In this document: positions 1 to 2,901 of the stretch, one piece after another
Layout: the number at the start of each line of letters is the position of its first letter
Position numbering within the stretch: the first letter of the stretch is position 1
NCBI GenBank assembly: GCA_902805975.1
Contig: CADCUT010000105.1
Coordinates: 1 to 36,606, forward strand
Length of the DNA: 36,606 nucleotides
From: an uncultured Rubrobacteraceae bacterium
Lineage (GTDB): Bacteria > Actinomycetota > Rubrobacteria > Rubrobacterales > Rubrobacteraceae
Direction of reading: 5' to 3'
Translations under genes and position numbers: made by a program
The notes under the pieces: model-generated
What the model was told of the DNA's origin: nothing
Seen by the model: the letters and a program-made list of their open reading frames with translations, nothing else
Databases searched by the model: none

Positions 1-126
1 GGCTGCCTGCTCACGGTCTCGGACACCATAGGCGCCGAGGTGGTCAGGATCGGCGACGAGGAGCTGCGCGGCGCCGTGGACAACATGATGGCGCTGGCGC
101 TGGACACCCTCCACGCCTTAAACTAG
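1..126 (+). CDS. Nucleoside phosphorylase (PNP/UDP family), C-terminal end, partial
   Basis: Only the last 41 codons are inside the window, ending at a TAG at 124-126. The peptide contains TVSDTIG followed by an amphipathic helix rich in Met, Ala and Leu. This resembles the C-terminus of hexameric purine nucleoside/uridine phosphorylases, where the Asp of the TVSD motif is the catalytic acid in the E. coli DeoD type. Those enzymes split nucleosides with phosphate in the cytoplasm for salvage. The start lies left of the window, so full length and substrate class cannot be judged. The next gene begins 62 bases later on the same strand, so co-transcription with the BchN-like gene is possible. 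The family call is moderately sure and the substrate is unknown. Confidence 0.62.
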   Translation, partial: GCLLTVSDTIGAEVVRIGDEELRGAVDNMMALALDTLHALN

Positions 127-188: not shown

Positions 189-1481
189 TTGACGATCCTC
201 AACGAGTCGGGGATACCGGACGTCCTCCACCCGCTGCACGCCGTAAACGGCCTGGCGGGCAGGCTTCCGGGGACGCTCGTGATCGTGGTCGGCATGCGCT
301 CGGAAGCCCACGTCGTCCGCTCGTTCCCGGGCGGCGGTCCGGGGGGCCGGGTCCGTTTCGCCATCCTCGACCCGAGAGATCCGCCGCAGCAGGGCCAGCT
401 CGCCAACCTCGCCGTCGACGCCGCCGGGAGGCGCGCGGAGAAGGTCCTGCTCGTCGGGAGCCGCACGGCCGCGGCCCTCGGGGTGGACGTGGACTTCGAG
501 GCCCGCCTCGCCGCCCGCAAGTCGGGCCTTACGGTCGCGGCGGTGGACGCGGACGCCCCCTACGCCAACCCCGGCGCCCTCTCGACCGACCTCGAGGACC
601 GGGTACTCGCGGCCCTCGTGGACCTCTGCCCGAAGCGGAGGACCTCGGAGCTCGTCGAGGCCGCCTCGCAGGCCAAGCGCACCGGGTTCTTCGGGCTCGG
701 GGGCAGGAACCGGGAGCGGCCCGCCGAGCAGGGCCGGCCCGTGGTGCTCCTCGGCGGCGCCCTCTCCCCCGGGTCGGCCGCAGACCTCGTCGCGGAGCTC
801 GCCCGGACCGGGGTCGAGGCCGCGGGGGTCGTGCCTCCCACCGGGGACGACCTGCCGCCCGTGGGCGAGGGGACGGTCGTCGCGGTCATGGACCCGAACC
901 TCGGGACGGCGGCGAACGCGGCGCGCGAGCGCGGCGCCCGCGTGGTCCGGACGCTCATGCCCATAGGGGTGGACGGGACGGCCCGGTTCTTGCAGGACGT
1001 GGCCGAAGACGCGGGCGCGCGGACGAGCGAGGTGATGCGGGCGCGTTCGGTGTGGGAGGAGTTGGGCGCCTTGCGCGGCCGCGTGAGGGGGAAGAGGATC
1101 TTCTTCGCCGGGGACACCGGCTACGAGGTGCCGCTGGCCCGCTTTCTGGCCGACGCCGGCGCGGTGGTGCTCGAGGTCGGCGCCCCGCGGCTTGACCGCA
1201 GGTTCCTCGCCGAGGAGCTGCAGGCGCTCGGCTCTGGCGTCGACGTGGTCGTCTCCCCGGACTGGCGGGGCCAGATGGCGCGCATAGAAGAATCCAACCC
1301 GGACGTCGTCGTGGCGAGCGCGGGCCTCCACGCCCCGCTCGTCGCCCGCGGCCACCTGTGCCGTGGACCGGAGGACTTTGTCCGGGCCGGCCTGCACGGC
1401 TACGAGGGGGCCCGGCGTATCCTGGAGCTCTTCGCCAGGACCTTTGATCGGGCCGAGGCCCTCGACGCTTCAAGCCTGTGA
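189..1481 (+). CDS. BchN-like (nitrogenase component 1-type) protein lacking the cluster cysteines
   Basis: This 430-residue protein matches the light-independent protochlorophyllide reductase N subunit over its length, with a GxxxxAH turn near residues 35-41, LCPKRR near 150 and GKRIFFAGD opening the third Rossmann-like domain near 310. The real N subunit holds a [4Fe-4S] cluster through three cysteines (Cys26, Cys51 and Cys112 in Rhodobacter numbering, from memory). An ungapped comparison puts His14, Glu39 and Arg92 at those places, and the protein has only two cysteines, both elsewhere. The fold is kept but the canonical cluster cannot be. The start is TTG with AGGGAGA about six bases upstream; the ATG at 184 is followed at once by a stop in its frame. 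The BchB-like gene follows after 10 bases, so the two probably form a complex. No BchL/NifH-type ATPase gene is in the window. Function unknown. Confidence 0.8.
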   Translation: MTILNESGIPDVLHPLHAVNGLAGRLPGTLVIVVGMRSEAHVVRSFPGGGPGGRVRFAILDPRDPPQQGQLANLAVDAAGRRAEKVLLVGSRTAAALGVDVDFEARLAARKSGLTVAAVDADAPYANPGALSTDLEDRVLAALVDLCPKRRTSELVEAASQAKRTGFFGLGGRNRERPAEQGRPVVLLGGALSPGSAADLVAELARTGVEAAGVVPPTGDDLPPVGEGTVVAVMDPNLGTAANAARERGARVVRTLMPIGVDGTARFLQDVAEDAGARTSEVMRARSVWEELGALRGRVRGKRIFFAGDTGYEVPLARFLADAGAVVLEVGAPRLDRRFLAEELQALGSGVDVVVSPDWRGQMARIEESNPDVVVASAGLHAPLVARGHLCRGPEDFVRAGLHGYEGARRILELFARTFDRAEALDASSL

Positions 1482-1491
1482 GCGGGGCCCC

Positions 1492-2745
1492 GTGAGGCTC
1501 CTTAAGGACGTCTACGAGGGACCCGGAAGCCACGGCATCCTGCGGCTGGCCGCCTGTATCGGCGGCGTCCACGCGGTGCTGCGGGCGGCACCCGGCGAGG
1601 CGTACCTACCGGCGCTCTACGGGTCGCGGGAGCGGGACGGCCTCGCGGCGGCGGTCACGCTGAGCCCCCTGCAGGACGGGCGCAGGGAGATCTACGCGCC
1701 CGGTGACCTGTCGCAGGACCTGGCAGGCGTCGGCAGGCGCCACCCTGGGGCGGAGGCCGTGATCCTGGCCCGCTCGGAGGCAGCCCTCCTCTCCGGGGAG
1801 ACCATCCCGGCCCCCTCCCCCCCGCAGCCCGGCGGTCGCGACCCCGCCCTGGTGACCTGCGCCTGGGAGTCGCCCGGCATGGGCGAGACCGAGGCCGCGG
1901 ACCTCGCCCTCGAAGACCTCGTCAGGACGCACGCCCGCAAGGGGCTGGAGCGAAGCCCCTACCCGACGGTCAACCTGTTCGGCCCCCCGGTCTTCGGGCC
2001 GGGCGCCGCGGCCGAGTACGACGAGGCAGAGCGTCTCCTGAACCTCGTCGGCGTCGAGGTGAACGCGCGGGTGCCGCTCGGGGCCACGGTCGAGGGGCTG
2101 CGACGCCTCCCCCGCGCCTGGGGCAACGTGCTCCTCTACCGGGAGGTCGGCGAGTCGGCGACCCTGTACCTGCAAGACGAGCACAAGGTCGGCAGGGTCA
2201 CCACGCCCATGATCGGGGCCGCGGGCACGGGCGCGGCGCTCCGGGCCGTGGCGGAGCTCTGCGAGCTCGACCCGAAGTTCGTGGAGCGGACGGTCTGGTC
2301 GGAGCTCGCCCGCACCTCGAAGCTGCCCTGGTACGCCCGGCTCAAGCCGCCTGAGACCTTCGCGGGCCTCAAGGCCGCCGTCTTCGGGGACTTCACCTAC
2401 CCTCTGGGTCTCGGGTACGCCCTCTCACGCGAGGTTGGCCTCGACGTCGCCGCGTGCGGGACGTACCTGACCCACCTCGAACGGGACTTCCTTTTCCACG
2501 CGCAGACCTTCACCGAAGGCGGCTTCGTCGAAGACGACCCCGAAAGGGTCGCCAACAAGATAGTGGCCGCCCGCCCCGACCTCGTGGTCGGCACGGAGCT
2601 AGAGAGGGCCGTCGCCACGGACCTGGACGTCCCATTTCTGCCCCTGTGCTACCCGACGGCGGGCCGCCCCTTCGTCGAGAACCCCCTCATGGGCTACAGG
2701 GGGTCGAGCATCCTCGCCGACAGGCTGGACGAGGCGTTGGGGTAG
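1492..2745 (+). CDS. BchB-like (nitrogenase component 1-type) protein without the C-terminal PCP-reductase domain
   Basis: The 417-residue product starts at GTG 1492, 10 bases after the BchN-like gene, with the YEGPGSHGILR opening typical of BchB (usual form YxGPxHxGxxR). Longer in-frame starts to 1363 lie inside the upstream gene and were not used. Recognisable BchB stretches are LPWYARL, AVFGDFTYP, CGTY, DLVVGTELER and NPLMGYRGSSILAD near the end. The aspartate that supplies the fourth cluster ligand in BchB (Asp36, from memory) is Glu36 here in an ungapped alignment. BchB proteins are usually about 510-540 residues and end in a helical PCP-reductase domain; this protein stops before it. 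It presumably pairs with the product of the gene before it. Whether it binds any cofactor or tetrapyrrole is unknown. The family call is firm, the function is not. Confidence 0.8.
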   Translation: MRLLKDVYEGPGSHGILRLAACIGGVHAVLRAAPGEAYLPALYGSRERDGLAAAVTLSPLQDGRREIYAPGDLSQDLAGVGRRHPGAEAVILARSEAALLSGETIPAPSPPQPGGRDPALVTCAWESPGMGETEAADLALEDLVRTHARKGLERSPYPTVNLFGPPVFGPGAAAEYDEAERLLNLVGVEVNARVPLGATVEGLRRLPRAWGNVLLYREVGESATLYLQDEHKVGRVTTPMIGAAGTGAALRAVAELCELDPKFVERTVWSELARTSKLPWYARLKPPETFAGLKAAVFGDFTYPLGLGYALSREVGLDVAACGTYLTHLERDFLFHAQTFTEGGFVEDDPERVANKIVAARPDLVVGTELERAVATDLDVPFLPLCYPTAGRPFVENPLMGYRGSSILADRLDEALG

Positions 2746-2749
2746 TTTT

Positions 2750-2787
2750 CAGGCTCTAGGCTCTAGGTTTTAGGTTCTAGGTTTTGG
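2750..2787 (+). repeat. Degenerate AGGTTTTAGG-type intergenic repeat, copy A1
   Basis: Just after the BchB-like stop codon there is a run of imperfect short units of the kind AGGCTCTAGG / AGGTTTTAGG / AGGTTCTAGG. The block is AT-richer than its surroundings. A related block in the opposite orientation lies at 2858-2892, so the two could pair as a long imperfect stem around a loop of about 70 bases. Confidence 0.6.
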
Positions 2788-2857
2788 GGTGAGGATGTGG
2801 CGGGCGAGGCGTCCTCTCTTGGGGGTGGCGGGGTCGGGCTCTGTGCCTCTTACCACG

Positions 2858-2892
2858 CCCCTGATGCCTGCGGCCTGAAACCTGAAGCCTCC
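2858..2892 (-). repeat. Intergenic repeat, copy A2 (inverted relative to A1)
   Basis: Read on the minus strand this block begins GGAGGCTTCAGGTTTCAGGC and ends with CAGGCATCAG. The first and last ten bases of a 30-base core (AGGCTTCAGG and CAGGCATCAG) are identical, with the same spacing, to the repeat at 7666-7695, which shows a dispersed family. It sits directly before the promoter of the next gene. Confidence 0.6.
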
Positions 2893-2895
2893 AGG

Positions 2896-2901
2896 TATAA
2901 T
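2896..2901 (+). promoter_or_regulatory. -10 box TATAAT, leaderless-type promoter
   Basis: A consensus TATAAT ends eight bases before the GTG at 2910, so transcription would start at or within a few bases of the start codon. No good -35 hexamer is visible at 16-18 bases upstream, where the sequence belongs to the intergenic repeat. Confidence 0.6.

Follow-up and report, generated by a model that had tools for sequence, protein, structure and literature searches.

The stretch of DNA analyzed here (the window) comprises 36,606 nucleotides and opens contig C105 of an uncultured Rubrobacteraceae bacterium, whose assembly amounts to 3.53 Mb in 238 contigs and is 82% complete. Near its beginning, two adjacent genes code for relatives of BchN and BchB, the N and B subunits of dark-operative protochlorophyllide reductase (DPOR), as the initial annotation had proposed and as matches to Pfam, NCBIfam, and the structure 2xdq bore out (Table 1). 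The two proteins are referred to below as N and B. For the B gene, the longest open frame starts at 1363, and the GTG at 1492 was chosen as the start. Both proteins matched the Pfam family Oxidored_nitro (E values of 7.8e-22 for N and 7.3e-36 for B), with the match beginning at residue 166 of N and residue 120 of B, which means that divergence from the superfamily is greatest in the first, ligand-bearing part of each protein. The top NCBIfam families were DPOR_bchN for N (1.8e-63) and DPOR subunit B for B (7.2e-114), both below the curated cutoffs. N scored 214.9 and 212.7 bits with the DPOR N models (cutoffs of 419.95 and 324, respectively), and B scored 381.5 and 214.8 bits with the DPOR B models (cutoffs of 509 and 490.35). 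Among solved structures, the top phmmer matches were chain A of 2xdq for N (1.4e-37) and chain B for B (2.3e-37). Membership in the Nif group was rejected, since no Nif-type NCBIfam model scored above 27.8 bits with the pair and the Nif rows formed a separate clade.

The cluster cysteines of BchN are numbered here as Cys26, Cys51, and Cys112, which we take to be their canonical positions. According to the available text of PMC12518044 and PMC4157233, three BchN cysteines and Asp36 of BchB are the ligands of the DPOR cluster, and Asp274 of BchB is the proton donor; the latter source also gives the BchB backbone at Gly409-Leu410 as a possible substrate contact. None of the four ligands was found in the window pair. 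The residues that the initial annotation had placed in these columns, namely, His14, Glu39, and Arg92 of N and Glu36 of B, were the same ones assigned by phmmer, MAFFT, hmmsearch, and, for N, hhalign. In the phmmer alignments, 2ynm gave all three assignments in N and 2xdq gave Arg92, and Glu36 of B fell at the Asp36 column against 2xdq, 2ynm, and 3aek. The MAFFT alignments took in four plasmid-borne proteobacterial DPORs as canonical references. An hmmsearch with Rubrobacteria profiles (31 N and 33 B sequences) repeated the four assignments, and hhalign of N against canonical BchN repeated the three in that subunit (probability 100, E value of 2.3e-46). The window N protein has two cysteines in all, C147 and C391, neither of them at a ligand site, just as first annotated.

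Table 1. Features of the window at and around the BchN/BchB-like pair, with the residues found in the homologous columns of Rubrobacteria
Feature	Position	Strand	Remarks
BchN-like subunit (N)	189..1481	+	TTG start, 430 aa; without Cys at the cluster-ligand columns
BchB-like subunit (B)	1492..2745	+	GTG start most likely, 417 aa; without C-terminal PCP_red domain
N His14 codon	228..230	+	BchN Cys26 column: Ser 19, Pro 9, His 2, Ala 1, gap 1 (n = 32 rows)
N Glu39 codon	303..305	+	BchN Cys51 column: Glu 25, Asp 6, gap 1 (n = 32 rows)
N Arg92 codon	462..464	+	BchN Cys112 column: Arg 27, Leu 2, Trp 2, His 1 (n = 32 rows)
B Glu36 codon	1597..1599	+	BchB Asp36 ligand column: Glu in 34 of 34 rows
B Pro286 codon	2347..2349	+	BchB Asp274 column: Pro 16, Val 6, Ser 5, Arg 4, Thr 2, Ala 1 (n = 34 rows)
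DeoD-type purine nucleoside phosphorylase, C-terminal end	1..126	+	Gene cut by the contig end; identified from its translation
Small conserved protein, 90 aa	2910..3182	+	Follows B in relatives; matches no Pfam or NCBIfam family above cutoff

The same picture emerged across the class Rubrobacteria, where, among 39 genomes, B was found in 34 (21 of the 22 good genomes) and N in 32. Two genomes, G004 and G023, had B without N, and in both the contig breaks off within or at B. Gene loss was considered for the five genomes of the class lacking B and was rejected, the neighboring purine phosphorylase being unmatched as well, which makes an assembly gap likelier. The 32 N rows leave out G023 (contig end) and G028 (early frameshift in the N gene) and include the partial G003; the 34 B rows include both copies of G030 and leave out the partial G004. 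When the four ligand columns were scored in these homologues, no cysteine occurred at any of the three N columns in the 32 rows, of which G003 was gapped at two, and glutamate stood at the Asp36 column throughout. Cysteines within four residues of the three N columns were present in 4, 1, and 11 of 31 rows, respectively, near two of the columns in four rows and near all three in none. The predicted ligand loss is thus class-wide and not peculiar to the window genome. A trivial explanation would be that the cysteines are hidden by a wrong start, a frameshift, or a misalignment, and one relative, the uncounted G028, does carry such a frameshift; none was found for the window. The columns lie inside conserved sequence, and the outcome in 31 to 32 MAFFT rows was repeated when profiles were aligned to solved structures and to canonical BchN. 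This agreement refutes the artifact, whose chance of being right we regard as negligible. Two further features of BchB were also gone: Asp274 was replaced in all 34 B rows, never by another Asp, and residues 402 to 409, including Gly409, were deleted in all 34. In 396 genomes sampled evenly across the phylum, matches outside the class occurred in three, two of which had sets of BchL-, BchN-, and BchB-like genes (L-N-B sets, in G223 and G043); G361 gave a short match only. When the BchN model was used as the query, three more genomes gave weak matches; these genomes were read as carrying nif genes. A scan of genome contigs returned three close relatives only. Scans of viral contigs and phages gave neither relatives of the pair nor references; canonical references were found on plasmids.

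Both genes are kept under purifying selection. Across eight pairs of relatives, the ratio of nonsynonymous to synonymous substitution rates (dN/dS) was 0.09 to 0.27 for N and B (a ninth pair, nearly identical, was uninformative), so the pair is not decaying, and we have hardly any doubt that it is functional. Mean identity among Rubrobacteria was 0.68 in N 1-30 (Cys26 column), 0.46 in N 31-60 (Cys51), 0.60 in N 91-120 (Cys112), and 0.57 in B 31-60 (Asp36), with the best stretch, N 301-330, at 0.85. Single residues stood out: E6, D11, and E/D39 of N were conserved in 31 of 32 rows (the remaining row being a gap), E104 and R110 of N in all 32, E36, D76, R94, S95, and E103 of B in all 34, and R31 of B in 33 of 34. 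Judged by the stretch identities and residue counts, the old cluster site as a whole shows no special conservation, in contrast to individual residues within it; conserved acidic or arginine residues now occupy three of the four ligand positions. Alternatively to the reading preferred below, the pair could be a metalloenzyme with another center, either a divalent metal held at Glu39 and Glu36 with their neighbors or a cluster or cofactor relocated to C391 of N and C257 and C386 of B, served by a donor other than BchL. The acidic residues at the Cys51 column (in 31 rows, the 32nd being gapped) and the Asp36 column (every row) would suit such a center, as would the conserved cysteines, and C386 of B aligned by hhalign (probability 95.4) with a conserved NifD histidine, presumably the FeMo-cofactor ligand. 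However, the residue at the Cys26 column is not constant, Arg predominates at the Cys112 column, and the neighboring genes that were identified (phosphopentomutase, two phosphorylases, the small protein, and an HtrA-like protease) include no electron donor; we consider a different metal center unlikely.

The initial annotation had also stated that no BchL-type ATPase gene is adjacent. With the window starting at a contig end, the absence upstream rests on the relatives, in which a purine phosphorylase gene takes that place. Nor was BchL recognized in any of the 39 Rubrobacteria genomes searched with the BchL-like protein of G223 as the query, the best match reaching 34 bits. Weak matches (E values of up to 1e-4) occurred in 29 of the 39 genomes and were mostly short P-loop stretches; two of them read as ParA- and CooC-like. 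The query itself scored 281 bits with the family Fer4_NifH. Phototrophy markers were sought in 21 genomes, consisting of 19 Rubrobacteria, G223, and G043. Neither Photo_RC nor BchM was found above cutoff in any of the 21; the one weak Photo_RC match, in G036, scored 19.3 bits against a cutoff of 27, and BchM matches below cutoff are uninformative, since methyltransferases match in all 21 genomes and in all 14 controls. A separate observation concerned P-loop ATPase matches interrupted by one in-frame TGA, found at L072 (G018:C47:1971-2711) and also in G013, G017, G035, and G036. The protein of G018 reads as CooC-like, and its TGA precedes a Cys by two codons, at the place of the CxC motif of CooC. 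Among seven genomes searched for SelA, G013, G036, and G014 were above cutoff, G018 and G035 had partial matches, and G017 and the window genome had none. The TGA-bearing CooC-like ATPase is a possible selenoprotein.

The C-terminal PCP_red domain of BchB was visible in 28 of the 34 Rubrobacteria B rows (for instance, 47.8 bits in G014), compared to reference scores of 67.9 bits for BchB and 31.3 bits for BchZ, the latter below the cutoff of 32.5. It was absent from the window protein, G021, G024, and, judged by length, G020, and it was lost or broken in both copies of G030, with a remnant in G030a and a tail out of frame in G030b. Past the B stop codon in the window (2746-2900), no coding end of PCP_red could be traced by eye, and short CTAGG-rich repeats are found there. 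The retained domain, together with the kinship to the tetrapyrrole-reductase branch, would fit a carrier or sensor in which the old cavity binds heme, cobalamin, or a precursor without reducing it. However, Gly409 went with the 402-409 deletion in every row, Asp274 is gone, PCP_red is missing or damaged in the window lineage and in the two copies of G030, and the upstream neighbors are nucleoside genes. A tetrapyrrole or corrinoid role seems rather improbable, although it and another cofactor at the conserved cysteines are the chief competitors of the reading preferred below.

In the trees, the Rubrobacteria N and B sequences formed one clade each (support of 100/99) on the side of DPOR and chlorophyllide oxidoreductase (COR), apart from Nif. 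In the N tree, the BchY rows joined Rubrobacteria, but support was weak (80/79) and a long-branch warning applied. In approximately unbiased (AU) tests, an N grouping of Rubrobacteria, DPOR, and L-N-B rows against BchY and Nif gave a P value of 0.493, and a B grouping of Rubrobacteria with G223 and G043 gave 0.177; an actinobacterial origin is thus neither shown nor rejected. The L-N-B operons themselves lie at L061:7106-10632 (G223) and L062:6096-9375 (G043) and have all the cluster ligands. Their Asp274 column holds Asn in G223 and a gap in G043, the 402-409 gap is shared by G043 and not by G223, and no BchM was found above cutoff in either genome. They would be DPOR-like reductases, with no evident substrate, in apparent non-phototrophs. 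By reading of the sequence, ResB- and CcsA-like genes adjoin the set in G223, and multiheme cytochromes are encoded close by. The three cysteines and Asp36 were kept in all the relatives scored, namely, four proteobacterial DPORs and the two actinobacterial L-N-B sets, which makes ligand loss simpler than a ligand-free ancestor. The Rubrobacteria pair could in principle be an ancestral BchN/BchB or a relic of photosynthesis lost in Actinomycetota (Gupta and Khadka 2016, as cited by others), as its placement as a single clade separate from the DPOR rows in the two trees and the magnesium-chelatase homologues reported in Rubrobacter (available text of PMC7203096) might suggest. However, BchB and BchN are described as the sole bacteriochlorophyll synthesis genes in Rubrobacter (available text of PMC7901476), and the retained ligands of the relatives, the low dN/dS, and the searches for BchL, reaction center, and BchM all speak against it. 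This origin is very unlikely. The initial annotation had doubted the ancestral form, and the idea is indeed weakened by the relatives that keep the ligands, although the trees leave the branching order within DPOR/COR unsettled.

The gene neighborhood was the main clue to function, albeit a circumstantial one. The purine phosphorylase fragment in the window is 92% identical to the phosphorylase of G024, which scored 258.4 bits with the DeoD-type model NF004489 (cutoff of 230). By tblastn at 33 loci (one gene-finding step used a rough reading-frame rule), the genes kept one order wherever the sequence covered them, running from the pyrimidine phosphorylase through the purine phosphorylase, N, and B to the small protein. 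The purine phosphorylase lay upstream of N at 30 of the 33 loci, and coverage upstream of N did not exceed 136 bases at the remaining three. The pyrimidine phosphorylase was present at all 20 loci with at least 2.9 kb upstream, and a phosphopentomutase lay further upstream in 12 of these 20. One member of each was checked against NCBIfam, giving 473.6 bits for thymidine phosphorylase (cutoff of 269) and 479.7 bits for phosphopentomutase (cutoff of 256). An HtrA-like protease was also among the identified neighbors. The small protein followed B at 32 of the 33 loci, further off in G009 and G012, and the remaining stretch ends early; it is a possible partner of the pair. A TATAAT hexamer (2896-2912 region) lies eight bases 5′ of the GTG start of its gene, as it does in G020, G021, G024, and G030a, and further upstream in G030b. 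It is possibly a leaderless promoter, in which case the 90-aa gene may not depend on the operon.

On balance, we lean towards reading the pair as a cluster-free, non-redox complex of the DPOR/COR branch that is kept for a job in a nucleoside-salvage gene cluster. By analogy with DPOR, N and B would form a heterodimer or heterotetramer, one that has presumably lost the [4Fe-4S] cluster, the ATP-dependent electron donor, and the protochlorophyllide chemistry. E6, D11, E/D39, and R92 of N with R31, E36, and R94 of B may form a charged network at the former cluster site. This network, or the old substrate cavity, could bind a small polar or phosphorylated ligand, our first guess being a nucleoside or pentose phosphate because of the neighboring genes, and the complex would then act as a ligand-binding regulator or an acid-base enzyme. 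The parts of this reading differ in strength. First, with neither ligands nor Asp274, the pair almost certainly could not work as a DPOR. Second, a cluster at the old site is very probably absent. Third, a role tied to nucleoside salvage is a tentative suggestion that may well prove wrong. An enzyme or ligand-sensing branch of the nitrogenase superfamily without a metal cluster, its cluster site turned into a charged pocket serving nucleoside salvage, is likewise possible rather than probable; we know of no other branch of this kind. The cluster-free half is well supported by the sequence, whereas the ligand half is a guess from context. The cluster-free branch that the initial annotation had suspected is supported at the level of sequence by the class-wide absence of ligands, the purifying selection, and the failure to recognize BchL; the cofactor-binding or scaffolding role that it had suggested would be conjecture.

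Several points weigh against this reading. The Cys26 column varies (Ser, Pro, His, Ala), so the charged network misses one of the four positions. Conserved cysteines elsewhere (C391 of N in 32 of 32 rows, C257 of B in 34 of 34, and C386 of B in 32 of 34) allow another cofactor. AlphaFold models from four-sequence alignments were poor (mean pLDDT of 55 and 37), and the closeness in space of the charged residues is for this reason taken from DPOR alone. The window genome itself has seven Fer4_NifH matches, three of them above the Pfam cutoff of 25 and the best at 41.3 bits. However, 13 of 14 control genomes also pass this cutoff, so the matches are not diagnostic of BchL, and we take the proteins for other P-loop ATPases of the family. 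The trees leave the order of DPOR, COR, and Rubrobacteria unsettled, with long-branch warnings. The absence of iron from the complex is inferred from sequence alone, and the neighborhood by itself is no proof that the pair takes part in nucleoside salvage.

The presence of BchN and BchB in Rubrobacter has already been published (Gupta and Khadka 2016, as cited in the available text of PMC4773611, PMC4783071, PMC7203096, PMC8429399, and PMC9561532). In the portions available, the genes are invoked as an indication of actinobacterial photosynthesis, ancestral or vestigial (PMC4773611, PMC4783071, PMC8429399), are said not to indicate phototrophy (PMC7901476, PMC9561532), or are speculated to code for a simplified dimeric enzyme of different function (PMC7203096). 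The available portions of this literature, the text of Gupta and Khadka 2016 itself aside, held no mention of the ligand loss. Beyond the initial annotation, the present analysis contributed the class-wide conservation, the loss of Asp274 and 402-409, the neighborhood, and the selection. The loss of the ligands and the catalytic Asp argues against reading the Rubrobacter genes as a working DPOR. A likely source of wrong DPOR annotation is the NCBIfam model NF002789 (cutoff of 509), which is passed by the ligand-free B of G014 (L044:8853-10295) with 579.2 bits; automatic naming of this protein as DPOR is to be expected. The class also offers a test case for whether a nitrogenase fold can serve without metal.

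Compared with known systems, the pair resembles DPOR (2xdq, 2ynm, 3aek) in its adjacent genes, in similarity along both subunits, and in the PCP_red tail of most Rubrobacteria rows. However, it lacks the cluster ligands, Asp274, residues 402 to 409, and a recognizable BchL, and it sits in a nucleoside-salvage neighborhood in genomes with no reaction center or BchM above cutoff. The L-N-B sets of G223 and G043 have N and B proteins about 25 to 29% identical to the window pair and likewise come from genomes with no reaction center above cutoff, but they retain the three Cys, Asp36, and an adjacent BchL-like gene. COR (BchY/BchZ) belongs to the same superfamily branch, and BchZ has the weak PCP_red match, yet the window pair scored only 44 and 48.5 bits with the NCBIfam BchY and BchZ models (cutoffs of 425 and 529). 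NifDK and NifEN share the Oxidored_nitro family with the pair and differ from it in their low Nif-model scores and separate clade. Finally, TroA/BtuF-type receptors are grouped with nitrogenase in the "chelatase-like" fold of SCOP. Likened to the pair by fold class, they are extracytoplasmic and single-chain, unlike N and B, but they provide a precedent for a related fold that binds ligands without a cluster.

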